Of a stretch of DNA of 64,000 nucleotides, positions 1 to 62,748 are shown one piece after another (within the stretch, counting starts at the first letter, position 1; each line of letters starts with the position of its first letter). The DNA lies in assembly GCA_018398585.1 (NCBI GenBank), contig JAGTTD010000011.1, positions 34,530,164 to 34,594,163 of the forward strand. The letters run 5' to 3'. A program made the translations under genes and the position numbers. A model generated the notes under the pieces. It saw nothing but the letters and a program-made list of their open reading frames with translations. It made no database searches and had not been told where the DNA came from. Source of the stretch: Simmondsia chinensis. Lineage: Eukaryota; Streptophyta; Magnoliopsida; Caryophyllales; Simmondsiaceae.

Positions 1-431
1 AAAAACTAAAAACCCAGTTTTACAAACAAAATTTCTTACTTTTGGTTTCTCATTCTAGGTTTCATCAAAACAGAAAAACCAAAAACAAGAAAAGAATCAT
101 ATTCAAAATATGATTTTTAGTTTCTATAAAAAACAACCAAAGAGGGCACCAACACGCCGTCACCGGATCCCATTAGAACTCCGAAGTTAAGCGTGCTTGG
201 GCGAGAGTAGTACCAGGATGGGTGACCTCCTGGGAAGTCCTCACCCTTAGGTTGGAGGCACTGGGAAACAGCCTCTTTTCAGGTTAACACCCTGAAGGGG
301 GAAGGCTGGGTACGTCCGCCCCCCCAGACCCTGTGTAGGCGGGAGCCCTTGAGGCACTGGGTATGTTCCTTTTTTGTTTAGTTTCTATAAAAAACAAAAC
401 CTACAGATAGAAAATGATGCCAAATAAGCCC
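1..431. mobile_element. MITE-like inverted-repeat element, left end outside window, split by a SINE
   Basis: The right arm (about 398-431, ending near AATAAGCCC) and the left stretch (1-136) are rich in AAAAACCAAAA and TTTTGGTTT motifs that fold on one another. The right terminus, read in reverse, starts like GGCTTATTTGGCATCATTTT. That resembles the ends of the elements at 13595-14208 and 28402-28634, which suggests one family. The 5S-headed SINE at 137-376 is inserted in it. No transposase is visible. The assignment rests on arm similarity judged by eye. Confidence 0.45.
137..376 (+). mobile_element. 5S rRNA-headed SINE, younger copy
   Basis: A 21-bp perfect target-site duplication flanks the element (116-136 and 377-397, starting TTTAGTTTCTATAAAA). 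The 5' part (about 151-245) is nearly plant 5S rRNA: the block from CACCGGATCCCAT through GAAGTTAAGCGTGCTTGGGC to GGATGGGTGACCTCCTGGGA is preserved. It therefore carries the 5S internal polymerase III promoter (A box about 183-203, intermediate element and C box about 214-240). The 3' part (about 247-365) is the GGAAACAGCCTC ... GCGGGAGCCCTTGAGGCACT domain known from Au-type plant SINEs. It ends in a short T run (369-375) that could act as a Pol III terminator. A long target duplication without TG/CA ends means retroposition by a LINE, not a 5S gene or an LTR element. Confidence 0.88.
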
Positions 432-3831: not shown

Positions 3832-3962
3832 ACAACAACAACAGACCCAGTGCCTCAAGGGCTCCCGCATAATGCAGGGTCTCGGGGGGTGGGATATACG
3901 CAACCTTACGCCTTTGGGATGCTACCCTAAAGGGAGGCTATGTTCGGGGACCCCAAACCTGA
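3832..3962 (-). mobile_element. Retroposon 3' end (Au-type 3' domain), minus strand
   Basis: Read on the minus strand it runs from about GGTTTGGGGTCC through ACATAGCCTCC and GAGACCCTGC to GCGGGAGCCCTTGAGGCACT and a (GTT)n tail. This is the same 3' domain as the SINE at 137-376 and the LINE at 9120-10328. The adjoining 3963-4018 stretch has AAAGCATAAA repeats that may belong to a LINE 3' UTR. I found no clear target duplication, so LINE versus SINE origin is open. It lies upstream of the rhomboid gene. Confidence 0.7.
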
Positions 3963-7036: not shown

Positions 7037-7712
7037 CTCCCCCACCATTACCCCTGTAAGGAGATGTGAACATCCATAAAACAGAAAGGAAGAGGGGACG
7101 AGGCTAGCCAAAGAAGAATTGGACGAAAACAATTGAACAGGACCTCGTCTTCCTCAACCTAAATGAAGAAATGGCTTTACATAGAACTCAGTCGAAGATT
7201 AGTATAGGAGTAGCCAATTTAGCATGGTTGTGTAGGAGCATCGAGCAGCCCTAAGCTAGTTCCATGTAGCGCTGGCGTATGTTGGTTGCCAAGAGCTCCT
7301 AGGACTCTCTCTCTCTCTCTCTTTCTCTCTCTTCCCTCTCCCTATACGCATTAGACGCTTTAATCTCTCTACTCTCTCTACATGCTTCTTTGCTTTTACC
7401 TTTTACCTTTTACCTTCTACCTTTTGCTTTGACTGATATGATTCTATGCATACATGCTTACTTGTGTACTTGTTTATTTGTTTACTTGCTTGCATGCATG
7501 TTTGCTTAGCAGGATCCCTATACTATATTTTACACGCTCTTCATATAGGTTATTCATAACTATCAATATCAATATCAAATATCAGGTTGGGGGTCATCGG
7601 AAACAGTCCCTCGTTAAAGTCTCACCCTAACGGAGGAAGGCTGCGTACATCTTACCCCTCAGACCTTGTGTAAGCGGGAGCTTTTGTGGCACTGGGGCTG
7701 TTGTGTGTATTG
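7037..7712 (+). mobile_element. 3' end of an RTE-type LINE, 5'-truncated
   Basis: The first part still reads as the C-terminus of a LINE reverse-transcriptase protein: TPVRRCEHP at about 7051-7077, then KKNWTKTIEQDLVFLNLNEE and MALHRT at 7110-7180. These match the same region in the LINE copy at 9120-10328 (APVRRCEQLHTT; DLTHLNLREKMALDRA) with stops mixed in. A 3' UTR follows (about 7200-7570) with a (CT)n tract at 7308-7337. The Au-type 3' domain follows at about 7580-7705 (GTCATCGGAAACAG ... GCGGGAGCTTTTGTGGCACT). No target duplication was found. This second copy independently shows that the LINE owns the 3' domain. Confidence 0.75.
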
Positions 7713-9103: not shown

Positions 9104-9119
9104 CTGCACATTGTAGTTA

Positions 9120-10328
9120 CAACAACAACAACAACAGTCCCAGCGTTACAGGGGCTCCCGCACGAAGCAGGGTTTGGGGGGTGGATGTACGTAGCCTTCC
9201 CCCTTCCGGGTGGAAGAGAGGCTGTTTCCGATGACTCCCATCATGAAGATCGAGTCGTCATGAAAGTATGGTATCCTGGAAACCATGGAAGCCACAAAGC
9301 ATCAGCTTAGGACACTGCGTTAACTAGCAGTATAAAATATATCCCACATAAGACAACTACAAGGCACATAGTAAAGCAAATAGTACATGACCAATAATAA
9401 ACGAATAATCGAGAAGCAACTAAACAACAGATAAGTGCACTACCAGGGGCTATGATTGCCTATAAATCTTAAACTACCAGTCACTCGCCGCACTACTCTA
9501 CGCTACCACATCCGCTACCCCTATGCTAGCCCTCCATCGTGCTCTATCTAAGGCCATCTTCTCCCTTAGGTTTAGGTGGGTTAGGTCGTGTCGGATTGTC
9601 TCCAGCCAACTCCTCTTTGGCCTGCCCCTCCCTCTTCTGCCTAGCGTAGTATGTAGCTGTTCACACCTCCTGACTGGAGCTGTGGTCGGTCTCCTGCTAA
9701 CATGTCAAAACCATCTCAAGCAGTGCTCTCTTAATTTATCCTCGATCGAGGCTACACCTAATTTACCTCTGATTACATCGTTCCTGATGCTATCTTTCCT
9801 TGTGTGGCCGCACATCTAGCGCAGCATCCTTATCTCTGCCGTTTTCAACCTCTGTGTTTGATGTTGTTTCATTGGGCGACACTTTGCCCCATATGACATA
9901 GCCGGTCTCACTACCGTCCTGTAGTATTTTCCCTTTAGCTTTAGCAGAAACTTTCTATCACAAAGCACCCCGGAGTCCATCCTCCACTTCTGCCAGCCTA
10001 CGTCAATCATGTTGTTGACATCCTCGTCAACCTCAACGTTCTGCCGTATCATGGAACCCAAGTATCTAAAACTCTCCTTACTCGGTACGATTTCCGATTC
10101 TATCTTGACATCCTCTGTACCAGTCGCAGTGGAATGGTCGAATTTGAATTTCAAGTACTCGGTCTTAGATCTGCTAATCCGTAATCCCTTCTATTCCAAA
10201 GCGCTTCTCCATAATTCCAACTTCTCATTTATGTCCGCTCGGGAGTCCCCTACTAAAACTATGCCATCTGCAAAATGCATACACCAAGGCACCTCTCCTT
10301 GGATGTGTCTAGTGAGCTCATCCATAAC
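9120..10328 (-). mobile_element. 5'-truncated RTE-type LINE with target-site duplication
   Basis: A near-perfect 16/17-bp duplication (starting CTGCACATT) sits at 9104-9119 and 10329-10345, differing by one extra T. Translated on the minus strand from 10328 down, it shows a degenerate reverse-transcriptase motif (MHFADGIVL, normally YADD-like). FRYLGSMIRQNVEVDEDVNN, the WQKWRMDSGVLCDRK region, KLKGKYYRTVVRPAMSYGAK, and the C-terminal LNLREKMALDRARWRASIG follow; these are hallmarks of plant RTE-clade LINEs. The frame is broken by stops. The 3' UTR covers about 9480-9245. It then ends in the Au-type 3' domain (9245-9137) and a (GTT)n tail (9136-9120). Sharing this end with the 5S-headed SINEs makes it the likely mobilising partner. 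Confidence 0.88.
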
Positions 10329-10363
10329 CTGCACATTTGTAGTTATTGATATAAAATTATAAG

Positions 10364-10610
10364 GGTTCATTTACCAGGCACTAATGCACCGGATCCCATT
10401 AGAACTATGAAGTTAAGTGTGCTTGGGTGAGAGTAGTATCAGAATGAGTGACCTCCTGGGAAGTCTTCGTGTTGCTAACCCTATAAGGCTGGGAGTCCTA
10501 AAAAACAACCTTTCGGCAGGGTTACATCCTGACAGGTAAGGCTTCATACATCTAAGCCCCCCCAGACCCCTACTTAAGCAGGAGCCCTTGAGGCATTGAG
10601 TTTGTTATTG
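10364..10610 (+). mobile_element. 5S rRNA-headed SINE, older full-length copy
   Basis: Flanked by an 18-bp duplication with 16 matches (10346-10363 and 10611-10628, starting TTGATAT). The head (about 10372-10486) spans almost the entire 5S rRNA, from ACCAGGCACTAATGCACCGG to CTTCGTGTTGCTAACCCT. The remaining 125 bp match the body and 3' domain of the SINE at 137-376 (CAGACCCC ... GCAGGAGCCCTTGAGGCATT) and end TTTGTTATTG. Several differences from 5S are CG-to-TG changes (for example GTGTGCTTGGGTG for GCGTGCTTGGGCG), the pattern left by decay of methylated cytosines. It landed immediately beside the LINE at 9120-10328. Confidence 0.88.
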
Positions 10611-10953
10611 TTGATATTAAGTTATAAGAAATTGAAACATAAGATGTAAAATATTTTTCTTTAAAAGGGAGAGGAAGTAGTTTTTTTATATAAAATATTT
10701 TATATATTCATTTTAGTTATTTAATACAACTATATAATATTAGACTCTAAAAATATTATCAAATAATTAGTTTGTTATAAAATAATAAATTTATAAATAA
10801 TAGTAATATATATAATTGGATACATAGATTTAAGCTCTTTTTGAACATTTGACCCACTTTTGAAGCAATCCCTTGCACTATTTTACAAGAAATCCCTACA
10901 CATGACATTTATCTTTTTCATATTCCTTCATTAAATTCAAACAACCTTGTACT

Positions 10954-18039: not shown

Positions 18040-18900
18040 AAAATTTTAGCAAGACTCCTCAATTTTGTAATTAATTATAATATATATTTTTTATACTTTT
18101 GATTTTAAAAAGTAATTTTTTGAACTTTATAAATTAATACGATATATCTCTTGCACTTTTAATTTTATAAATAACCCTCGAACTTTATAAATTAACATAA
18201 CACACTTTCTACACTTTTAATTTTATAAAATAGTCTCTAAACTTTATACAACAACAACAACAACAGTCTCAGTGGCACAGGGACTCCCTCATGAAAAAGG
18301 GTCTGGGGGGTGGATGTACGCAGCCTTCCCCCTTTCGGATGAAAAAGAGGTTATTTTCGAGGACCAGTCCCTAAACTTTATAAATTAACACAATATACCT
18401 TCTATATTTTCAATTTCATAAAATAAATTCTAAAATAAGATTAAAAAATTAAGATAAAAAAATATACGAAATTAAAAATTTTAAAATACATACTAAAAAA
18501 TATTTTCTAAAAATATTAAAAAATAAAAAATAAAATTATTATTATATTTTTTCATACTTTTTTTAAAAAATATCCTTCATAATTTATTCAAATTTTTTAA
18601 TTTTTTACTTTTTTTTATTTTGAAATTTATGAATGTATAAGCTGTGTGTTATGATTAATAACAAAGTTCAAGGGGTCAGGCATGTATAACAACAAAGTTT
18701 AGAGAGCTATTTTATAAAATTAAAATTATATGGGGTGTGTTGTGTTAATTTACAAAGTTCAAGGGCTATTTTTGAAATTGAAAGTGCAGGGGATGTATTG
18801 TGTTTAATTACAAAGTTTAGTGGGCTATTTTTCAATATTAAAAGTGCGGGAAGTGTGTTGTGATTAATTACAAATTTCAGGAGGTCTTACTATATTTTGT
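18040..18900. mobile_element. Fold-back element with tandemly repeated arms
   Basis: The left arm (18040-18440) has about four units of roughly 60 bp built on ACTTTTAATTTTATAAA ... AACTTTATAAATTAA. The right arm (18650-18895) has about four units of the complementary form (TTAATTACAAAGTT ... GGGCTATTTTT). The outer ends mirror each other (TAGCAAGACTCCTCAATTTT against GAAATTTCAGGAGGTCTTAC). The middle is AT-rich. Such structures are known from MULE-like fold-back elements. The retroposon 3' end at 18249-18365 is inserted in the left arm. Confidence 0.65.
18249..18365 (-). mobile_element. Truncated retroposon 3' end, 117 bp, nested
   Basis: A 17-bp duplication with one mismatch flanks it (AGTCTCTAAACTTTATA at 18232-18248; AGTCCCTAAACTTTATA at 18366-18382). 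On the minus strand it reads from GGTCCTCGAAAATAACC through AAGGGGGAAGGCTGCG to GGGAGTCCCTGTGCCACTGA and (GTT)n. This is the shared LINE/SINE 3' domain. The truncation and (GTT)n tail favour a LINE origin. Confidence 0.8.
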
Positions 18901-21160: not shown

Positions 21161-21270
21161 TACAACAACAGACCTAGTGCCTCAAAGACTCATGCCTAAA
21201 CAAAGTCTAAAAAAATAGGTGTACACAACCTTATTTCTTTAGAATATAACCTTGCCTAAGGTGTTTGAGG
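21161..21270 (-). mobile_element. Old retroposon 3' end
   Basis: ACAACAACAGACCTAGTGCC, CTCAAAGACTCATGC and GTGTACACAACCTTAT are a decayed Au-type 3' domain in minus orientation. No target duplication recognised. Confidence 0.55.
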
Positions 21271-21554: not shown

Positions 21555-24500
21555 ATGGCTAGCCCTAATAAGAAGCAGGATGGCAAGGGCTTTTTCGCAG
21601 CGATGAGTTCGGGTTTCTCCATGTTCGGCAACGCTATGCATAGATCTGTCACAGGGTATTTCAATCGCTTTTATCGTGTTGAGTTAATTTTGATTATCTT
21701 TTGGTTTAATACCAATTGATTAATATGTGATACGGATGTATCTGGGCCAGAAGCTGATAATTTGTTAAGGTTTCTATACGTGAGCCTAGTAGAATTCAAC
21801 GTAGGAGTTGTGAGAGAAAAATTAATATATTAGCCTAGTGGGCTACTGGATAATGTCAATTGGTTTTAGGATGCAATCTCATTTGACTTATATATGAATC
21901 TCATGTATGCCAACTCCTTGGGCACGGTGAAGTTTTAACATAATTGGAATTTTGAATTCCGAATTCACCTGATTGCTGTTTGTTAAGAACTTCTCACATG
22001 GGAGTTTAGTAAGAATCCCACGTTAGAATTATAAGAGTGAAAAGATTAACGTATAAGTTTAATGGGTTATTTTACATAATGCCTATTAATTTTGAGATGG
22101 AACTATTTGGGCTTATATACGAACCTCATCTATACCAATTTAGTGGGTCAGGCCTAAGGTCTGGTCAAATTTAATACTGTTGAATTCTGATACGAGCGTG
22201 CAATTCGTTGCCTTTGTTGTGGCAATTCTTGCTAAATATTTGTATGAAGTCTCGTATGTTGATTTTATGCGCCAAAGAGCAAGAAAGCCTCTAGCTTGAA
22301 CACCGTGGTTGTAATTATATATCGGTTGTCGGTTGGTATATGCTGTGATCAATTCATAAGTATGTTTTCTGTTTGCTTTATCATAGAAAGGCGTTTCTAT
22401 GTGTGATTTCCAATTTGGGCAAGGTGGGGGTAGCTTGGTTGTGTCTTGATCTAAAATTGAACAACCACCCAGTTCCTCAAAGAGGCTCCTGCCAAGACAA
22501 AGTTTGAAGAGGGTAAGACGTATGCAACCTTACCCCTGCAGGATGCTATCTTCTAGAAGGATTGTTTCCAAAGGGTTCCTAGCCCTAAAAAGAATACTAA
22601 AATTTTGAAAATAGATTGAAACTGAAATAAAGCAGTAAATGGACTAAAAGTAAAGAGGAAAGTAAGAAAGGATCGAGATGACACTAGTTTTATTGATTGT
22701 TTTCTAATACACACTCGAGTCTGTTTGTAGAGTCTATTGGGCTACCATATTGCTTTTTGGCCCATATATACTGATTTGGGTATGTATCAAGTCGGCTGCG
22801 TTCCACTTGTGGTGGGCAGCGGCATACTGACATGGGAGAAGCTGGCAACCGCAGCCCCGCGAGAACATAACCACCTGGAGCAGCGCCGAGATGGGTTGTC
22901 CCGGTCACTCCAGGGATTACCGAAGGAAAGTTTCTGCCCATATAGGCACCAGCATGGAAACATCTGGGCTCTCCTGGCCTCATCTTGGGTGCAACCATGA
23001 AAAGGAACTGGTGAGGGGGGATGGGGCGGGGTTGTATTTGTTAGCCATTGGTATTTTAGAAGCTTTTATGAACTTACGATTTTACTTTGGCAGTGATACC
23101 ATGTAAAATAGTAGTATTAAATGGCATATCTAATAGGATTGGTTTGTGTGTGTGCGCGTGCGCGTGTATAGTACATAAGTTTGTGAAGTACAATAATATC
23201 TCTAATATAAATATAGATCTAAATAATATCGACAGAGATCTAGATACACGAAGTCCTAGATATATTCTGATATCCAAAGGAGGTCCATGGTCCAATTTCA
23301 ACTAGGCTGGAGTGTGGAATTGCTTCCTCCTTCTGTAGAAGAGGATACATAGCTCCTCTTAGTCTTTGGGTGTCTAATCCATGTCATTAAATGTGTTTAG
23401 GTTGCTTGGTTATGAAAATTTGGAGGTTATAAACCCAGAGGGAGGAAAGGATGATGCAGAGGAAGAAGCGCACAGAGGACGATGGAAACAAGAGGTATGC
23501 CATGTCCTGTTGCCTTTATGCTTCTGGAACGTGACACACGTTTTCACACATTTTCTGATTATTAAAAATGGTGTTTTATTCTAACTTTACTTTTATATTT
23601 CATTTGGGCTTGGCGCTAAGTACGTCTTTCATTTGATTTTGTTTGAAAGCTTTAAATGCCATGGAAGACACTGCTAATGGTTAAATTCTGTTTTACTTCT
23701 TCAAAAACTTAATGTTTGAAAACTTCCTTTTTCCCCCTTACAGGAGCGAGACAGTTACTGGCGAATGATGCAAAAGTATATTGGTTCAGATGTAACATCA
23801 ATGGTAACACTTCCAGTCATAATATTCGAGCCAATGACCATGCTTCAGAAAATGGCAGAGGTTTGTGATTTCGTGTTTCTGAGATGAATTATACATGTGC
23901 ATTTTTGCCATATCACCAAAAGGATTGCATTAACGGTGCCAGTTGTATTATACCTTTGACAGTTAATGGAATATTGCCATCTTTTGGATCAAGCAGATAA
24001 ATGTGAAGATCCCTACTTGCGATTGGTTTATGCTTGTAAGTATTCTCCGACTCTGAGTGGTAATTAAGATTCATCAATGTACTTTTTAATATGAAAACTA
24101 AATTCATGCTACCATTTGCAGCTTCATGGGCTATTTCCGTCTATTTTGCCTACCAGCGTACCTGGAAGCCTTTTAATCCCATTCTTGGTGAGACCTATGA
24201 AATGGCCAATCATAATGGGATTATTTTTATTGCTGAACAGGTGGGTACTTCTAGCTCAAGGTAGCCTATTTCTCAAGCATCTTTTGGCCTTCGCATGATC
24301 ATGGATAGAGACCTCTCTTGTCTACTGCTACCGATAACCATATTATGGATTTGATTAAAAAAATAATTTGTATAGTGGATAAAACTCCTAGTATGATAAA
24401 AGTTAATTGACTAGTCTTTGTGGTTCTTGCTCAGTGGCAAATCTACCATAGATCTGTAAGGTGCATGGACCTTATAGCTTTAACGTAATGCCATATATGT

Positions 24501-29681: not shown

Positions 29682-32600
29682 TAGTGGTGGCCATGGGCCG
29701 GGTCGGGCAGGGCCGGGCCCCAGGCCCGGCCTTTTTAACTAAATTAAAAAAAAAATTAAAAAATACATAGTCGTTTTGTACTAAAATTATTGTAATTCAT
29801 TGATAAATAATATGAGATACAAATATATTTCTTTCCAAGTATACGTGTTCAAAAAAAATAATACTAAATATATATAATAAATAAAATACAATATATAAGT
29901 AATTATCAAAAAAATATCAGTAAATAAATAATGTATCAAATATAAATATAAAGTTGGGGCCTAATATTTAAAAATACAAATTTATTTATCAAAAAATATA
30001 AAGTTTGACATATGGAGTGTGCGGTCATCTTTTGACGTAAATATTTGAAAGTAAATAATTAACATACAGAAGTCTTGAATCTTGATATCAGTCATATCGG
30101 GGGGTTTCTACGCCATCATTTGACGTATCAGTTGTGCGGTCGTCTTCTTCATCGCTCGATGAATTCATCTTCATTCTTTGTTGATCTCTTGCCTTAGCTA
30201 GCAGCCAATCTTTCAAGCACACAGACATCTCCAAACTCGACGGCGATAGCTTCGCCTTCTTCGTTCCAAGCAACCTGCCACCAAGACTGAAAGCACACTT
30301 CGATGCTACTGAAGACACCGAACAACTTAGTATATCACGTGCCATGGTGGAAAGCACGGGATACTGGGTTTGGTTTGTATTCCACCATTGTAACAGATCA
30401 AAATTCGGGTTGGCCCGCGGCCCGAAAATATGGACCATCGATGTCCGCAAATAATAATCTAACTCGTCACATGATGTGGGGGCTGCTGTGGGCGTAAATT
30501 GCTGCAACAATTTTCACGAATATGACGTGTGTAAACTACTTCCACTAGATGTGGAAGATCCTACTGCAGCAGTACTAGGATTATTGGACGCTAATTGATG
30601 GGAATATTGAGAAAATAAACTATGCAAGTCGTTATCGACATCGGCAATGAAAGTGTCGATATTAAGAGAAGGATTCAAATATGTGAAAAAATGTTGGCAA
30701 AACAAGTTGAAACCTGAGCGTTTACAACGAGGGTCTAAAATAGTTGCAAAGCAGTAAGTAAGAGGTAGTTCAGAAAAATATTTGGCAAGCTTTTCTTTCA
30801 TTGCCATAATCGATCCGAACAAAATGGGGTTGGATTGATTACCCACCATCCAATTTACAATATCAAGCAATGTTGATATTGCTTGAGGCATGGTCGGATA
30901 GTAGCAACCCGAAAAAAATGTTGTCGCGTCTTTAAACATGCTAAAAAATTTACAAATTTCATCTATTGTCTCCCAATGTATACCGTCCAGGTTGTAATCG
31001 CGCCATTCTACACGATTTTCCTGGGCGAATTTCATCAGAGCGTCTTTGTATGGTAGAATGCGTTCTAACATTACTACCGTAGACGACCACCTAGTTTTGG
31101 AGTCTAATTTAAATTGTTTATATTCTATATTATGCAACCTACATACATTTTTAAATCTTTTTTTCCTAGCGACGGATGCTTTAATTGATATTATTACAGA
31201 TCTTAAGGTGGCAAGGGATGCGTCTATAAGATCTAAACCATCCATTACCATTAAATGCAAAATGTGACAGATGCAACGAATATGAAAACACTTCCCACCT
31301 AACATGAGTCTCATTTTCCTAATTAAATGTGCTACGGATGCAGTGTTATTGGAAGCATTGTCAAACGTAATACTGAAGATACGTTGTTCTATGCCCCAAT
31401 CGCGGACTGCAGACATAATCGCACCCGTAATTACCTCGGCAGTATGGGGGCAATCTAAAAGCCCAAAATGAATTATTCTCTTCTGGATGATGAAGGATTC
31501 ATCGGTCCAGTGTGCCGTTATGCACATATAAGGTTGGCCGGGTGTGGACGTCCATACGTCCGACGTCAACGAGAACATGCTCGTGTTCGTCGCAAAAAGT
31601 GTATGTATCCCAATTTTAAGATTGTGGTACAACGTAAAAGCGTCCCGCTTTACGGTGTTCCGAGGAATCCTCACAATTGCGGGTTCACATTTCGTTGGAG
31701 GTAGTCGACGAAATGTGGGCTTTCACCGGTACTAAAAGGCCTTTCACTCAAAATTACATATTTAGCTAGTCCCATACGGTTGCTCTATTGAGAGAACCTA
31801 AAATTAGCAAGTGCACCGGTCACTTGCTGTACTAAACGTTGTTGGCTCTTTTCCGGGAATTGCTCGGGGTGGCACCTAAGTATATGTCTATTTAGTGTGC
31901 TTGTCCCACTGTCGGGTTGATGGCTAAAATTCTTAGGTGGGTCACATAATTTACAGGTTGCTTTATTAGTTGTCTTATTAAGGGTAAAGTGTTTCCATAC
32001 CCCACTAGTTGTACGCCTACTAGTCAAGGTACTAGTTTCAGGCTGGGCATTGGTGGTGGGGGTGGGTTCCTCATCAGTTTGTGAGTCTCCAACCCCACCA
32101 CTACTTGACTCATGATAATCTTGTGGTTGTGAAAAGTTATAATCTATGCTATCATCAGTGTATTGGGGTGTTGGGTCTGGTTGTATAAAAGCTCGTTCTT
32201 CAGTATCAAGTAAGACAATTGTAGTCTTTTTTGGGATTCTGGGTGGCCGAGAAGAGCTAGAACTAGCACGACCGGCTCCAGATGATGAAGAGTTGTGTGC
32301 CATATTAGTATAAATGATTATTATTTATAAAATGCAAGTAGTAATATAAATTAAATAACTAAAAATGCGAATCAAAAAAAATTACGATACTAAAATTACC
32401 GAAACGAGAGAACAATGAAATTCACACTTCAGCCAAATATTTTACGAACTTCGAACTTTAGAGCACAATTTTGCAATTAGCAAATTAGAGAAGATGGGAG
32501 ACGATGAATGTATAGAGAGAAAAGAGAGAATTGAAGATTTTGTGAGGAAATGAGTTGGGGAGGTTTAAATATTTATAGGAAAAAAAAATAAATTTTTTTT

Positions 32601-50861: not shown

Positions 50862-53800
50862 TCAAGTTGGGCCGAAGATACTGAGGAGACCCAACTTGCT
50901 AAGAAGAGACTTGAAGGAAGCAGGGGAAAGAGCCTTGGTGAGAATGTCTGCAAGTTGATGTGTGGAAGCAACATGAAGAGCCTTGATGATGTCAAGGAGA
51001 ACCTTCTCACGGATGAAATGACAATCCAGTTCAATGTGCTTGGTGCGCTCGTGAAAGGCTGGATTGTAAGTAAGATAAACAGCTGTTTGATTATCACAGA
51101 AGAGAAGAGCGGGCTGAGGATGAGGAACAGCAAAGCCAGCTAGCAACCGCAGCAGCCAGATAATCTCACAAGCTGTAAGAGCCATACTGCGATATTCAGC
51201 CTCAGCAGAGGACCTGGAGACTGTTGGTTGCTTCTTGGACTTCCATGATATGAGAGAATCACACAAAAATACACATAAACAAATGACTGAACGCATTGTC
51301 TCAGGACATGAGCCCCAGTCAGCATCTACAAATGCCTTGAGATGTAGTGAAGAAGCAGCGGAATAAAACAAGCTCTGACCAAGAGAGGACTTGATATAAT
51401 GCAGGACACGCAGGGCAGCTGCCATATGTGGTTGACGAGGGGCAGAGACAAACTGAGTCAGCTTGCCAACAGCAAAGGACAAGTATGGACGTGTGAAAGT
51501 GAGGTAGAGCAATTTGCCAATGAGCCTGCGGTAAGGCTCTGGATCAGGCAAGAGATCACCATCTTCACGACTGAGAGAGAGATTAGAATCCATAGGAGTA
51601 GAGGTGGGACGACAACCCAGCATCCCCACAGATTCAAGAACCTTGAAAGCATATTGGTGTTGGCATATAGAAATGCCAGAGGGTTGCCGAGCAATTTCAA
51701 GACCCAGGAAGTATTTCAGGGTGCCCAGATCCTTGAGATGAAACAGATGATGTAAATCCTCCTTTAAGCGTGAAACATAAGTAGGACTGCTGCTAGCAAT
51801 TATAATGTCATCAACATAGACAAGGACAGCATTAAAATGAGCAGAAGATGAAATAGTAAAGAGACTGTAGTCATTCGTTGACTGAGTGAAGCCAAGAGAG
51901 AGCAGTCCAGCAGAAAACTTCGCAAACCACTGCCGTGAAGCTTGCTTGAGACCATATAAGCTTTTGCGAAGACGATAAGACAGGGGAGTGGGCGCCCCCT
52001 GAACCTCAAAGCCTGGAGGAAGAGACATATAAACCTCTTCAGAGAGGTCACCATGAAGAAAAGCATTGTGAACATCTAGTTGGGAGAGATGCCAGTCTTT
52101 AATGGCTGCCAGACTGAGAAGAAGCTTAACTGTAGTAAGCTTGGCTACAGGGGAGAATGTGTCAAAGTAGTCAACACCTTCCTTCTGAGTATAACCTTTG
52201 GCCACTAAACGAGCCTTGTATCTCTCCAAGGTACCATCAAAATGAAGCTTGACTTTATACACCCACTTACAGCCAATCAACTTCTTGGAAGGAGGAAGGG
52301 GAACAATGTCCCAGGTGCCATTGGCCTCCGAGGCCGAGATCTCTTGAGCCATAGCTTCACACCAATGAGGAGAATGAACAGCCTGATGATAGAGCTCAGG
52401 TTCGTCATAGGTAGAAAAAGCAATTGAAAAGGCTTTATGAGTTGGAGAGAGGGAATCATAGGTAAGAACGTTAGCCAAGGGAAAAACAGTGGAGGAGCTG
52501 GAAGAGGAAGAGGAAGGGAGGTTGCAGTGATATTCTTGGAGATAGGAAGGGGGATGGCAAGTTCTGGTTGATTTTCGTGGAGCAGGAGGGGATGGGATAG
52601 CAACAGAAGCAGGTAATGCCTCGGGGAGAGATGAAGAGGATGGAACAGAAGGAGACTCAGTTGGTAACATAGGGGTAGGAGAGGGAGGGGATGGACTAGT
52701 GGGTAAAACACTAGGAGAGGGGGATTAGTCTATGTGTAAAGGGGGAGCATTGGAAGTAGGGAGACTTATGGAGGCATTTGTCAAGTCAATGTCTGCAACT
52801 GATTGACAAGGCATAAAGATATGGGAAAAGGGGTCTTCATGAGGAGGTATAAAGATTGAAAAAGAAAGATGGTCTCATGAAACACGACATCCCTAGAGAG
52901 GAAAATTTCCTTTTTTTGTATATCATAGAGTTTATATCCTTTAACCCCAAAAGGATATCCCACAAAGACTGCTATCCTAGCCCGAGGGGAGAACTTATCA
53001 CGGTGAGCAGTGAGGGTGGAGGCAAAACAAAAACAACCAAAAGGTTTTAAGTTGGAGTACTGAGGAGCTTTGCCATAGAGAAGCTCATAAGGGGCCTTTT
53101 TGTGAAGCAAACAAGAGGGCAATCTATTTATACGATGCACAACAGTGAGAACACACTCACTCCACAGGAAAAGAGGGGCGTTTGCTTAGAAAAGAAGGGC
53201 TCTAGCCACAGCTAAAATATGCTGATGTTTTTTTTCAACCACTGAATTTTTTTCAGGTCTGCCCACATTAGATGGTTGATGGATAATACCATGGGCCAAG
53301 TAAAAATGTATAAGGTTATAACTCTTTGCCATTGTCACTACGAAGGGTTTTAATTGGAGTTTTGAATTGTGTGAGAACATGGCTGTAAAAAGCAGGAATC
53401 CACTTAGCTACCTCTGACTTAAAGAGCATCATGTACAACCAGGTGATTCTAGTACAGTCATCCACAATACTCAAGAAATATCTATGCCCAAATAGAGATT
53501 TAAAATGGAAAGGACCCCAAATATCACAATAAATGAGATGAAATGTGTTGGGGGACAGATTATTATTGCATACAAAGGGTAATCTTTTCTGTTTTGCCAT
53601 GGGACAAACAAAATACGGTACATCAGAGTTATTGGACATTACATAAGGAATTAAATGCTGCAGAGCTTGCATCCTTCCCTTCCAAGAGTGACCAAGTTGC
53701 AGATGTCAAAGACTAGGAGCATGGATGGGTCTGAAATTAGGAGGACCTAATGGCAAGGAGACATTACAGGCTGCTGCTGTACCATGGCTAGGAAGAAGGA

Positions 53801-55369
53801 GGTAGAGATAAAAGCATCTCCGAGCCACCCCAATCGTAATCGATTTGGTGTGGTCCTGTATGACACATTTGTCAGCAATAAAAGAGACAACCAAATTTTG
53901 TGAGTTACACAACTGACCAACAGATAAGAGATTATATTTGAATTCAGGGAGAAACAGAACATCTGACATAACGAAGTTAGAGTTTATCTTAACAATTCCT
54001 TGGTGAGTAACAGCAGTGGAATTGCCATTAGGAAGGGTAACATGACCTTGCATGGTATGAGTCATTTTATCAAAAAGAATAACATTCCCACACATATGAT
54101 GGGAGGCACTAGAATCAATGATCCAGCAATTCTTGAATTTATCATGATTGAAGGAAGATGAAGAAGCAAAAGAATGAAAGGAAATCAGTGCTCTTATACC
54201 CGAGAGGGCCATGGATAAACCAGAGGCACTACCAGCATTGGCTGAAGCAATCTCCCGGTTGGTGTTGCCCATGGAAGAATGAACAAGATGACCACTCAAT
54301 AAGGTCATCAACTATTGGCACTGTTCTGGAGTGAATGAAAGCATAGCCTTCTCTGTTGGCACAGCCGAAGCTCCAACTTTGGGAGCGGTGTGACCTTTCC
54401 CTTTGGGCTTATATCCTGGAGGAAATCCATGGAGCTTGTAGCACTTGTCAATAGTGTGTCCAGTCATTCCACAATGTGTACACATAGGGCGCTCCCTTTT
54501 GCAATGCTTAGGCTGCAATTTGTTGTCCTCTGCTTTACCAAGCATAGCAACGTTTTAAGCAATCATAACCTGTCTAGTGCTGATCTCATTTTCAGCCTCT
54601 CGTTGAGTGATCTTGTTGAAGACCTCATTAATGGAAGATAAGGGTTCCAGCAGCAGGATCTGGTCCCTTACAGCAGTATATGTGTCATGTAGATCCATTA
54701 GAAATGTCATTATGTGGTCTTATTGCCTTACCTCCATCATATCTTGGACACAATGACACCCTTTCACGCCACAAGAACAGGGGAAATGGCTTTGTAGCCT
54801 ATGTACTCATCCCACAGTGTTTTTAGCTTAGCCAGGTAGGTAGTAACTGTCATGGTCTCCTGTTTCAGTTCTGAGATCGCTCGTTTGACCTGAAAAACCC
54901 TAGGTCTGTTCTTCTGCGAGTAACGAGCCCTAATGTCTGTCCACATCTCAGCTGCATTGCATGCACTGTTGATGCTTGTTCCAATTTCAGCAGAAACTAA
55001 ATTAGTGATCCAAGAGGTGATCACCGAGTCACAACGCTGCCACTTCTCATATAGAGGATCATCCTCCGTCGGTTCCATTAATTCCCCAGTAATGAAACCT
55101 AGCTTATTCTTTGACTGAAAATCTCTCTTCATTGATGTACTTCATGTATTGTAATTCTGAGGTCCAAGCAGCACTTGCGTGACCATAACCATTCCTGAAC
55201 CATCACTGTTGCTGAGGAAATACGGTGAATCATAAGGATCCTCAAGTCGAAAGTACTGCATGTTGAGCGATTCTTGCAGACCTCGTCCCGAATTCCTTTC
55301 TCCACTTCCAATTCTGTTGGAAATGCTTTCGAAGTTCGAATTCGCCATGGAAGGATGCAGATAAAGCAA
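50862..55369 (-). pseudogene. copia gag-pol remnant
   Basis: Pieces in order on the minus strand: gag start (55369-55142, MANSNFESISN) continuing at 55132-54764 (MKRDFQSKNKLGFI). The zinc knuckle follows in 54545-54312 (CTHCGMTGHTIDKC). The protease region is in 54311-53706 (WIIDSSASHHMC). Integrase pieces lie at 53672-53316, 53380-53186 and 53140-52781 (FHLIYCDIWGPF; RITWLYMM). A long intact reverse transcriptase/RNase H frame covers 52670-50862 (KLIGCKWVYKVKLHFDGTLE, DVHNAFLHGDLSEEVYMSLP, VLVYVDDIII, SRSSAEAEYRSMA, DNQTAVYLTYNP). At least five stops or frame changes break what should be one polyprotein, so it is not autonomous. Opposite-strand ORFs here are shadows. Confidence 0.93.
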
Positions 55370-56690: not shown

Positions 56691-56751
56691 TCAAATACTA
56701 TTTCATTATATCTATTTATTATAATTCATATCTGACCCAAATATCAAAAGT

Positions 56752-56838
56752 GGGGTGGTGGCGCAGTTGGCTAGCGCGTAGGTCTCATAGCTAGATTGAG
56801 TGATCCTGAGGTCGAGAGTTCGAGCCTCTCTCACCCCA
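56752..56838 (+). tRNA. tRNA-Met (CAT), elongator type, with intron
   Basis: The acceptor stem GGGGTGG pairs with TCACCCC, and the discriminator A is at 56838. D-arm TGGCGCAGTTGGCTAGCGC is the A box, and GGTCGAGAGTTCGAGCCTC is the B box/T-arm. Anticodon CAT is at 56786-56788. A 13-nt intron (56790-56802) lies after position 37, as in plant elongator tRNA-Met genes. The mature length is 74 nt. The sequence matches the plant consensus closely and is likely functional, with CTTTTTAT-type T runs just downstream. Confidence 0.95.
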
Positions 56839-57135
56839 TTCTCTTTTTATTTTTTTATATATGTATATATATTTTCTGGTCCCCAAATTGATTAATTCAA
56901 ATGTAACTGGAGGCTTGTTTTCGTTGATCCAAAAACAAAAAATGTAACTGTGGGCTCACTTGGACTACAACCTGAATGAAAGTCTTAAACGTAGGGCATT
57001 GACCAGTCACCGGCGCATCAGGTCAACTCCGGTTCCAGAAATTGCGTAATCATTGACGTAAGCACTTTTAAAAAATGGTCATGCTCAAGTTGACTGGTCT
57101 TCTCTGTATTGTTGGACCAACACCTTGAAATTTCT

Positions 57136-59240: not shown

Positions 59241-59557
59241 TCTCCTCTTCTCCCCCTTTTTAACCCTAATTCTCCACCACTCCCTTCTTATCTTCTCTCT
59301 CTCTCCAGGTATTTTGACCATTTCATTCCTTAATCACTCTTTTTAGAGCATTTGGCTTCGTTTACTTCACTACTTTGTTCAAAATTATACGCCTTTTTTT
59401 GTGCTTAACTGGAGATTTTGGATTCAATTTTGGATTTAGATTATAATTTTTGATGGGTTGGGGTTAGGGTTGCAAAGTTGGAAACTTTCTTCCTTCTAGT
59501 TATCAAGTTTGACTGGGTTTCTTTTTTTTTTTTTAGTAAAATTCGATCTTTGTACCA
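59241..59557 (+). promoter_or_regulatory. GRAS gene 5' UTR exon, intron and leader
   Basis: The CT-rich leader (59241-59308) ends at a donor CCAG|GTATTT. An intron (59309-59536) ends in a poly-T tract and TTTTAG, and 21 bases later the ATG at 59558 begins. LISCL-type GRAS genes commonly have such a 5'-UTR intron. The first 200 bp are a duplicate of 55952-56152. Confidence 0.7.
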
Positions 59558-61828
59558 ATGGGTATGGATTCTCAAGTTTGGGGATTTTCTGATTATCCCA
59601 CAAATGGATATCCTTCTATTAATGGATCTATTTCACCTGGATTTGATGAATCCTTGAATTATACCAATTTGTTCAATTATAAAGATCCTACCTTTGATCT
59701 TACTTCATTGAATCTTCCAAACGCTGGTAATTTTAGCACATCCTTGGACACGAGCCCGGAATTTGAGAATTCTAGGGAGAGTGACGATTCTGATGATGTT
59801 CTTAAGTACATTAGTACTGTCCTCATGGAAGAGAATTTGGAGGAGGTGCCTTGTATGTTCCAGGATTCGTTAGCGCTTCAGGTGGCCGAGAAACCCTTTT
59901 ATGATGCACTTGGGAAGAAGTACCCTCCTTCCCCGAATCAACACCCGCTTATCGAGCAGTTTGTGGAGAGCCCGGATGGTCATAATAATAGTCGGGGATC
60001 GTCTAGTGAGGATAGCGGTGGCAAAAGTATCAGTAGTACCAGCTCAACTAGCCTTTTTGGTTCAGTAGGTGTGGGTGATTTTGGTGAAAATAAGGAAATC
60101 TTTGTAAAACCTCCTGCAGTTGAATCCATTTCTCAGCCATTTACGTTTTCCGAGTGGTCATTCAGCTCTTCGAGTGTCTCAAATGGCGCTACTAATACCG
60201 GGGTAGTGAGATCTTCTCTTGATATGCCAATGGATTTGAATATTTTTAGTGACAGAGATTCGATGATACAGTTCCAAAAGGGTGTGGAAGAGGCTAGCAA
60301 GTTCCTACCAAAGAGCAGTAACCTTGTTATTGATCTCGAGAACATCACTTTCCCTGACGAAACAGAAAAGGTCCTGGACGTGTCGGTGAAGAAGGAAATG
60401 GAGGATCCCTTGCGTGAAACGTATAGAGGACGGAAAGTTCACTATCTGGAGGATGAAGATTTGGAGGCACAAGGCAGGAGTAGCAAACAGTCAGCTGGTT
60501 CCGTGGAGGAAGCTGAGTTGTCTGACATCTTTGACAAGGTTTTGCTATGTCCTCACAGGACACAGGAGGCTTGCGCTAGTGCGGGTCTAGACTCGAGAAA
60601 TGAGGCAACTTGGAGATCAGAGTTGAATGGGCCTTTAGGGGGCTTCGAGGGAGGAAAGGCCCGCTCTAAGAAATCAAGTGAAAATAGCAAAAGTGTGGTG
60701 GATTTGAGGACTCTTCTGGTTCATTGTGCTCAGGCTGTTGCTTCTGATGACCATAGGACCGCTGATGAATTGCTAAAGCAGATCAGATGCCATTCGTCTT
60801 CTGTAGGGGATGGATCCCAGAGGTTGGTGCATTATTTCGCGAATGCCCTCGAGGCGCGTTTGGCTGGTACTGGTTCACAGATTTATACAGCTTTGAGTTC
60901 CAAGAGGACAACGGCTGCTGAAATATTGAAAGCGTATCAAGTTTTCGTTTGTGCCTGCCCATTTAAAAGGGCCTCGATCGCCTATTCTAACGATATGATC
61001 TTGAAAATGGCCAAAAATGCTTCAAAGCTTCACATCATAGACTTTGGAATCCTCTATGGTTTTCAATGGCCCGTCCTTATTCAACGCCTCTCAGACCGAG
61101 CTAGTGGACCTCCTAAGTTGCGTATCACTGGGATCGATCTTCCCCTACCTGGATTCCGCCCAGCAGAAAGAGTTGAGGCAACTGGGTCCCGTTTGGCAAA
61201 ATACTGTGAGCGGTTTAATGTCCCATTTGAGTACCATGCCATTGCTCAGAGTTGGGAGACAATCAAACTCGAGGACCTTAAGATTAGAGATGATGAGTTT
61301 GTTGCTGTGAACTGTCCTTATCGGTTCAAGAACCTCCTCGATGAGACAGTAGTTCTGGATAGTCCGAGGCATTATGTCCTAGATTTGATAAGAAAGATAA
61401 AACCTGATATTTTTGTGCATGGTGTTGTGAATGGTTCCTATAATGCCCCCTTCTTTGTCACTCGTTTCCGGGAGGTACTTTTTCATTACTCTGCGCTATT
61501 TGACATGTTCGATACCACTGTCTCCCAGGAGGATCCTGAGAGGAAAATGTTTGAGAAGGAGTTTTATGGACGGGAGATTATGAACGTTATAGCGTGTGAG
61601 GGCACAGAGAGAGTTGAAAGGCCCGAGACATACAAGCAATGGCAGGTTAGGAATACAAAGGCAGGGTTTAGGCAACTTCCTTTGGATATGGATCTCATAA
61701 AGAAAATGAGGACCAAGGTGAAGCGAAACTACCACAAGGATTTTGTGATCGATTTAGATGGTCACTGGGCGTTGCACGGATGGAAAGGGCGCATCACCTG
61801 CGCTCTCTCAGCGTGGGTTCCCTCTTAA
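59558..61828 (+). CDS. GRAS-family transcription regulator, SCL14/SCL33 (LISCL) type
   Basis: Nuclear transcriptional co-regulator; LISCL members such as SCL14 work with TGA factors in stress and detoxification responses. Single coding exon, 756 residues, a usual length for the group. The acidic N-terminus has LISCL motifs (DDVLKYISTVLMEENLEE, LQVAEKPFYDALGKKYPP) and a serine-rich stretch. GRAS domain blocks in order: LHRI (VDLRTLLVHCAQAVASDDHR, about residue 385), VHIID variant LHIIDFGILYGFQWP, LHRII (EATGSRLAKYCERFNVPFEY), PFYRE region (PDIFVHGVVNGSYNAPFFVT, RFREVLFHYSALFDMFDTTV), and SAW (DGHWALHGWKGRITCALSAW). A second ATG occurs two codons in; I kept the first. No lesion. Rearranged upstream DNA may affect its expression. 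Confidence 0.96.
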   Translation: MGMDSQVWGFSDYPTNGYPSINGSISPGFDESLNYTNLFNYKDPTFDLTSLNLPNAGNFSTSLDTSPEFENSRESDDSDDVLKYISTVLMEENLEEVPCMFQDSLALQVAEKPFYDALGKKYPPSPNQHPLIEQFVESPDGHNNSRGSSSEDSGGKSISSTSSTSLFGSVGVGDFGENKEIFVKPPAVESISQPFTFSEWSFSSSSVSNGATNTGVVRSSLDMPMDLNIFSDRDSMIQFQKGVEEASKFLPKSSNLVIDLENITFPDETEKVLDVSVKKEMEDPLRETYRGRKVHYLEDEDLEAQGRSSKQSAGSVEEAELSDIFDKVLLCPHRTQEACASAGLDSRNEATWRSELNGPLGGFEGGKARSKKSSENSKSVVDLRTLLVHCAQAVASDDHRTADELLKQIRCHSSSVGDGSQRLVHYFANALEARLAGTGSQIYTALSSKRTTAAEILKAYQVFVCACPFKRASIAYSNDMILKMAKNASKLHIIDFGILYGFQWPVLIQRLSDRASGPPKLRITGIDLPLPGFRPAERVEATGSRLAKYCERFNVPFEYHAIAQSWETIKLEDLKIRDDEFVAVNCPYRFKNLLDETVVLDSPRHYVLDLIRKIKPDIFVHGVVNGSYNAPFFVTRFREVLFHYSALFDMFDTTVSQEDPERKMFEKEFYGREIMNVIACEGTERVERPETYKQWQVRNTKAGFRQLPLDMDLIKKMRTKVKRNYHKDFVIDLDGHWALHGWKGRITCALSAWVPS

Positions 61829-62685: not shown

Positions 62686-62697
62686 TATCTAGCACAA

Positions 62698-62748
62698 CAA
62701 TAACAACAAAGTGCCTCCAAGGGCTCCCGCAAAAGCAGGGTCTGGGCA
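62698..62748 (-). mobile_element. 51-bp retroposon 3'-end insertion
   Basis: CAATAACAACAAAGTGCC, TCCAAGGGCTCCCGC and AAAAGCAGGGTCTGG are the shared 3' domain. The flanks TATCTAGCACAA (62686-62697) and TATATAGCACAA (62749-62760) match 11 of 12. A second, more decayed tail follows at 62766-62806 (ACAACAAACTCAGT, AGGCTCTCACTAAAGGA). Confidence 0.7.

Follow-up and report, generated by a model that had tools for sequence, protein, structure and literature searches.

A SINE family with a 5S rRNA-derived head and an RTE-type 3' end in the genome of jojoba

Why does a short plant retroposon begin with a 5S ribosomal RNA sequence? The question is raised by an element near the start of a 64,000-nucleotide stretch of DNA from jojoba, Simmondsia chinensis (the window, by which the whole stretch analysed is meant). 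A sequence-only reading had taken the element for a SINE with a 5S head and a plant-type 3' domain, the tRNA promoter of an ancestor having been exchanged for that of a 5S gene. The reading that we favor, with a probability of roughly 0.9, is that it is a member of a family of 5S-headed SINEs that would be transcribed from a type 1 Pol III promoter, mobilized by RTE-type LINEs and born by a template jump. Its claim to be a SINE, its relation to the LINEs of the same genome and the origin of its two parts are taken up below.

Two copies and an RTE-type LINE in the window

The element (copy a) is composed of the following parts.

137-376 (+): copy a, of the young subfamily Y, a short retroposon with a 5S head, a LINE-type 3' end of about 120 bp and a T-run
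116..136 (+): left target-site duplication, TTTAGTTTCTATAAAAAACAA, agreeing at 21/21 positions with 377-397
377..397 (+): right target-site duplication, partner of 116-136
137..246 (+): 5S rRNA-derived head, by Rfam RF00001 and by alignment to plant 5S
~185-201, ~202-210 and ~215-234 (+): A box, intermediate element (IE) and C box of the head, all with intact words
247..369 (+): body and tail, homologous to the RTE-type LINE 3' end by blastn and alignment
370..375 (+): 3'-terminal T-run, presumably serving as Pol III terminator and tail, its length varying among genomic copies

The 5S_rRNA model of Rfam (RF00001) matches positions 136-253 with 77 bits (E 1.4e-14) over model positions 1-120, its full length, and the promoter boxes are readable. 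The SINE with a 5S head that had been proposed at 137-376 fits its coordinates. The perfect 21-bp duplication reported around it was confirmed: 500 pairs of stretches drawn at random from the window yielded none with so high a score. The plant SINEs Au and TS begin with a head of tRNA origin that contains A and B boxes; copy a has a 5S head instead, and a search of the element for a tRNA match gave none. An internal TTTT of copy a, at 276-279, is lacking in the family consensus and might make Pol III terminate too soon.

The part beyond the 5S head matches the end of a LINE in the same window, near which lies a second 5S-headed element (copy b).

9120..10328 (-): 5'-truncated RTE-type LINE with the C-terminal part of the reverse transcriptase, followed by the 3' UTR, the terminal domain and a (TTG)n end
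9133-9238 (-): terminal domain common to LINE and SINE, by tail alignment
10329..10345 (-): target-site duplication at the 5' end of the RTE copy, reading TAACTACAAATGTGCAG in minus-strand orientation, by eye
9104..9119 (-): target-site duplication at the 3' end of the RTE copy, reading TAACTACAATGTGCAG in minus-strand orientation, by eye
10363..10614 (+): copy b, of the old subfamily B, with a 5S that begins at its first bases (GGGT) and is complete to the 3' end, then an RTE-type 3' end and a (TTG)-like tail
10346..10363 (+): target-site duplication to the left of copy b, TTGATATAAAATTATAAG, the 16/18 core of a longer imperfect repeat
10611..10628 (+): target-site duplication to the right of copy b, TTGATATTAAGTTATAAG, partner of 10346..10363

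Reverse transcriptase motifs assign the LINE putatively to the RTE clade; Pfam gave no match for its 124-aa reverse transcriptase piece. All 150 scored sequences among 9,569 first-look candidates match this piece (its own included), with open frames of up to 680 aa, and in the genome sample described below the stretches L040 and L049 align with the LINE end at 62-63% over 568 and 571 bp. The duplication around the LINE reads TAACTACAA(A)TGTGCAG by eye, the 5' side being one A longer, and measures 9 bp by an ungapped script.

The tail of copy a is 75% identical to the RTE 3' end over 115 bp (blastn; rte3 423-528 against 254-367). In alignment, the SINE follows the RTE LINE ends from about CAGGTTGGGG onward and diverges upstream. 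As the non-5S part thus corresponds to the terminal ~120 bp of RTE-type LINEs nearby, the SINE is bipartite, a 5S head joined to an RTE tail. By alignment it has its 3' end in common with an RTE-type LINE of its own genome, and the window LINE is presumably of the type of its mobilizing partner. The plant-type 3' domain of the earlier reading is accordingly present after the 5S head, with the changed detail that it matches an RTE-type LINE end in the window. Its Au-type or Angio-domain character is putative; a 37-bp Angio-domain defines the Au/Angio-SINE superfamily. An arrangement of this kind has been described in tobacco, where the TS SINE has ~100 bases in common with the LINE RTE-1_Stu and ends in TTG repeats, plant RTEs being given in the same account as ending in TTG-type repeats (passages of PMC3747384).

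The same 3' domain is also found without a 5S head at 3840-3960 (-), 7584-7702 (+), 18262-18361 (-), 21162-21266 (-), 22453-22588 (-) and 62693-62746 (-). These six pieces are probably truncated LINE ends. The third is flanked by a 17-bp near-perfect duplication, and the last adjoins a second partial match.

Copy b has the same order of parts as copy a, with 75% identity over 221 bp and an Rfam 5S score of 54.2 bits. Its duplication was equalled by 2 of 500 random pairs, and the outermost few bases at both of its ends overlap the duplications. It adjoins the 5' end of the truncated RTE-type LINE (9120..10328, -). Descent of copies a and b from one duplicated block is ruled out by their unlike flanks and unlike duplications.

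The window holds other features as well. Open frames at 30088-32324 (-) resemble a hAT-type transposase, and those at 50862-55141 (-) a broken Copia LTR retrotransposon, both assignments being putative. A tRNA gene lies at 56751-56839 (+), called tRNA-Leu by ARAGORN (bacterial code) and tRNA with extra bases by Rfam. A GRAS protein is encoded at 59546-61825; its closest named full-length relatives, in the best 120 of 1,908 matches, are from Opuntia (66%, a value that three unnamed proteins reach as well) and Beta (64%), and in a tree with 19 chosen relatives it stands beside the core Caryophyllales (Opuntia, Amaranthaceae and Caryophyllaceae) with modest support (86/86), which agrees with a host in Caryophyllales.

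Dispersal and target-site duplications

The host genome was searched in 35 contigs totaling 831 Mb. The 24-base word that spans the junction of 5S and body, GGGAAGTCCTCACCCTYAGGTTGG (Y = C or T), occurs 3,328 times (1,677 on the forward and 1,651 on the reverse strand), and the same word read backwards, used as a control, occurs 0 times in the 831 Mb. Thousands of dispersed junctions in common, against none for the control, imply that copy a is no chance chimera. A family had been predicted to show itself by a 5S-to-body junction repeated throughout the genome, which is what these words on both strands amount to. A unique junction, or heads lying in tandem 5S arrays, would have spoken for an accident; neither was found, the 100 junctions listed of the 3,328 being spread along contig C1. 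A tandem 5S array is rejected on the same kind of evidence, since the junction and 5S-word matches are far apart in the lists shown.

Whole-element searches agree with the word counts. With copy a as the query, the 40 matches scored of 5,336 first-look candidates were the window copy and 39 others of 234-242 bp on many contigs, at 95-97% identity. With copy b, 40 were scored of 6,948 candidates, and there were the window copy itself, 39 other full-length matches at 83-87% and one 45-bp fragment. Copy a was also searched for in viral contigs, with 0 matches, one further match (L059) being a chance one without blastn similarity to the element, and in contigs of prokaryote genomes, again with 0; these are non-plant collections and so say nothing of other plants.

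An unselected sample of 200 kb was taken as 20 stretches at evenly spread positions on contigs C1, C4, C5, C6, C7 and C11. It contained two full-length members (L037 and L049), 80-81% identical to the young consensus, and in a scan of 20/20 stretches these were the only places with Rfam 5S above the gathering score. Extrapolated to the whole genome, two per 200 kb would amount to some 8,000 copies, the Poisson range being wide (about 1,000 to 30,000). The elements are thus short (~240-250 bp), dispersed and provided with a Pol III-type head, as SINEs in general are. With an A box, IE and C box in the head, they also qualify as 5S-derived SINEs of the SINE3-like kind. Copy a belongs to a large and probably recently active family.

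Target-site duplications were looked for around 30 young copies, copy a included. Flanking repeats reached p<0.01 against 870 cross-paired flanks in 23 of them, and 21 had a repeat scoring 12 or more within 12 bases of the element; 7 were without a clear repeat. The repeat of one copy (L014) lies 30 bp from the element and should be left out of the count. Two copies, L021 and L022, found on the small contig C33 and on C32, represent one insertion present twice with the same duplication, so at least one of them was duplicated along with its flanks, either as a duplicated region or through redundant assembly. Among older copies, 7/9 have repeats scoring 12-18, where the maximum of 72 cross-pairs was 10, and two (L051 and L057) have none. 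The expectation that each copy would have its own duplication is borne out by 21-23 of the 30 young copies and by 7 of the 9 older ones, whereas 7 and 2, respectively, lack a clear repeat. Two of the older copies, L054 and L058, are 5'-truncated within the 5S part and have perfect flanking repeats of 18 and 12 bp, a combination that is a mark of target-primed reverse transcription. Over the family, the duplications measure about 12-28 bp.

Subfamilies and the origin of the head

The copies fall into at least three subfamilies. In subfamily Y, made up of copy a and its close matches, the 5' end is changed, the region near the 5S 3' end is about 8 nt shorter than in subfamily M, and the tail is a T-run. 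Its mean non-CpG divergence from the consensus is 1.7% (29 copies, L022 being dropped); as the set was of top-ranked matches, it is younger than the average copy. The internal promoter words of the Y consensus are those of plant 5S, and the box words tested are exact in 26/29 (A box), 25/29 (IE) and 20/29 (C box) Y copies. The M members are L037, L049, L051-L055, L057 and L058, in which the 5S 3' end is mostly intact. Only L037 and L049 are unselected; L053-L055, L057 and L058 were taken from the listed places of a 23-mer spanning the M junction, and L051 and L052 for their CATCAG word. That junction, TTGCACCCC|TCAGGTTGG (also given as TCGTGTTGCACCCC|TCAGGTTGG), occurs as the exact 23-mer 505 times in the genome, against 0 for its control. 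The B members read are copy b and L060, in which 5S runs from base 1 (GGGT) to its 3' end and the tail is (TTG)-like.

The 5' end of 5S is lost in M and Y and kept in B. The new 5' end, ACCTAAGAGGG in M and CCAAAGAGGG in Y, shows partial complementarity to the region of the 5S-RTE junction. That of M can pair with the junction itself, and that of Y with GUCCUC immediately before it, with probabilities of about 0.4-0.8, as though a closing stem had been restored. Compared with shuffles, the heads gave no sign of a kept 5S RNA fold (z of -0.25 for the M head, -1.34 for copy a and +1.19 for copy b). A retained 5S fold is rejected, and a rebuilt closing stem has so far no support from folding statistics, the heads doing no better than shuffles and copy a not being 5S-like in fold.

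Were B on the one side and M and Y on the other founded separately, each by a fresh fusion of 5S RNA with an RTE 3' end? The B junction reads ...ACCC|TATAAGG against ...ACCCC|TCAGG in M, the tails are (TTG)-like in B against T-runs in M and Y, and the 5' ends differ as described. With the 5S 5' end missing from M and Y and the junctions unlike, a single origin is not proven. On the other hand, B and most M and Y copies have in common the word CATTAG, which departs from plant 5S and which may reflect common descent or else the state of the host 5S; L051 and L052 have CATCAG. Two separate births are possible, if the less probable course.

The exchange of a tRNA promoter for a 5S promoter in an Au/Angio-type SINE, as the sequence-only reading had it, has fared less well. 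Tails of this type are common to tRNA-headed SINEs of plants such as Au. For TS, a tail in common with RTE-1_Stu is published (passages of PMC3747384). The pattern of a tRNA B-box word, GGTTCGA, 8-38 bases before GAAACAGCCTC has 8 matches in the genome against a control of 0. On inspection, no fewer than 4 of these closely resemble the RTE tail word GGTTGGGGGTCC, and another belongs to a copy of the 5S-SINE. A tRNA-headed progenitor may have escaped so narrow a pattern, whose 8 matches stand against 3,328 for a single 5S junction word. In the 264 kb scanned with Rfam at gathering level, the single tRNA is a gene of its own, and no tail carries one. The part 3' of the 5S, moreover, is matched by RTE-type LINE 3' ends of the same genome, which makes the direct fusion of 5S and RTE sequences the simpler account and an exchange of promoters unlikely.

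A 5S head could also have come from Cassandra, a plant LTR retrotransposon with 5S sequence in the middle of its LTR, rather than from 5S rRNA itself. Cassandra resembles the jojoba element in being a plant retroelement with a 5S promoter; it is found across plants, Amaranthaceae and Caryophyllaceae included, and in some species its similarity to 5S exceeds 100 nt. The core common to all is ~70 bp, however, and is never at the LTR ends (passages of PMC10853983). The B copies (copy b and L060) have kept the 5S entire, base 1 and 3' end included, set between the target duplication and the RTE tail, which makes such a source of the head improbable, more so than an exchange of promoters. That the element is itself a Cassandra TRIM is rejected, as the target duplication directly abuts the head start and the tail end; the jojoba element differs further in having no LTR, duplications of ~12-28 bp and a LINE tail.

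Multiplication of a 5S pseudogene beside an RTE tail by segmental duplication or in tandem 5S arrays can be dismissed, the identical duplications of L021 and L022 notwithstanding, given junctions in both orientations (1,677 and 1,651) and copies with unlike flanks and independent target duplications.

Mechanism, known systems and meaning

The life cycle is most likely as follows. Pol III would start at the internal type 1 promoter of the 5S head and stop at the T-run. The head being an internal promoter, every full-length copy would bring its own promoter along. An RTE protein would then bind the common 3' end, nick the DNA and copy the RNA in place by target-primed reverse transcription, an insertion that would leave duplications of ~12-28 bp and some 5'-truncated copies. 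Movement by the RTE LINE protein is suggested by the common 3' end, the long duplications and the 5' truncation. At the birth of the family, the RTE enzyme probably switched from the RTE 3' end to the 3' end of a 5S rRNA and read this template through to base 1; a template jump is proposed because B, the oldest-looking subfamily, starts at 5S base 1 and because the RTE part of both B and M is attached where the 5S ends.

A point against this picture is that plant 5S genes probably depend on upstream elements, which a SINE cannot carry along. The 5S array of the host was sought with a 57-base plant 5S word, with 0 matches in the 831-Mb genome. The 19-mer GGATCCCATCAGAACTCCG has 35 dispersed matches, two of which (on C2 and C5) are the SINE copies L051 and L052, and a tandem 5S array with CATCAG-type words was not found in the assembly; GTACTAGGATGGGTGACC is a word typical of 5S genes. 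The host 5S may be unlike the query words, or the array may be unassembled.

BovB belongs to the RTE clade, and SINE3 is reportedly a class of 5S-derived SINEs (Kapitonov and Jurka 2003). The jojoba family resembles SINE3 in having a head that derives from 5S and contains the A box, IE and C box. It differs in its host, a flowering plant, the literature covered describing 5S-derived SINEs in animals and 5S-related ones in one fungus. By description, Ped-1 of the springhare, with a 5S rRNA promoter and a BovB tail, is of the same two-module design (PMC3747384, Table 1, among the passages covered); it differs in being from a mammal with BovB as the partner, whereas jojoba is a flowering plant. 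Au/Angio-SINEs and TS are alike in being plant SINEs with a conserved 3' end, and differ in having a tRNA head; the partner LINE of Au is listed as 'Nd' in the table of Ohshima 2013 (passages of PMC3747384).

A 5S-type Pol III promoter before a plant 3' end, taken by the earlier reading as a SINE family unusual for plants, is in keeping with this literature. One source ascribes 5S-type promoters to 'SINEs in animals' (passages of PMC10853983), and the portions covered of PMC10886601, PMC3747384, PMC9033089, PMC10741241, PMC11490119, PMC13295347 and PMC5787218 contain no 5S-headed plant SINE. None is reported in the open-access literature searched, in the portions covered, and priority as the first report of a 5S-headed SINE in plants is unproven. 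We consider it somewhat probable that the family is the first plant 5S-headed SINE lineage, formed by direct joining, perhaps twice, of whole 5S with an RTE 3' end, and comprising at least three subfamilies with a very young burst of several thousand copies, in which the core of the promoter remained close to 5S and the two ends of the 5S were remodeled.

SINE finders keyed to the A and B boxes of tRNA would miss a 5S-headed family. With young copies, old copies and a probable partner LINE in one genome, the birth of a SINE and the rules of a 5S-head promoter become testable. A young 5S-headed family of thousands of copies would mean that this type of SINE promoter arose in plants too, with an RTE-type tail as in the springhare.
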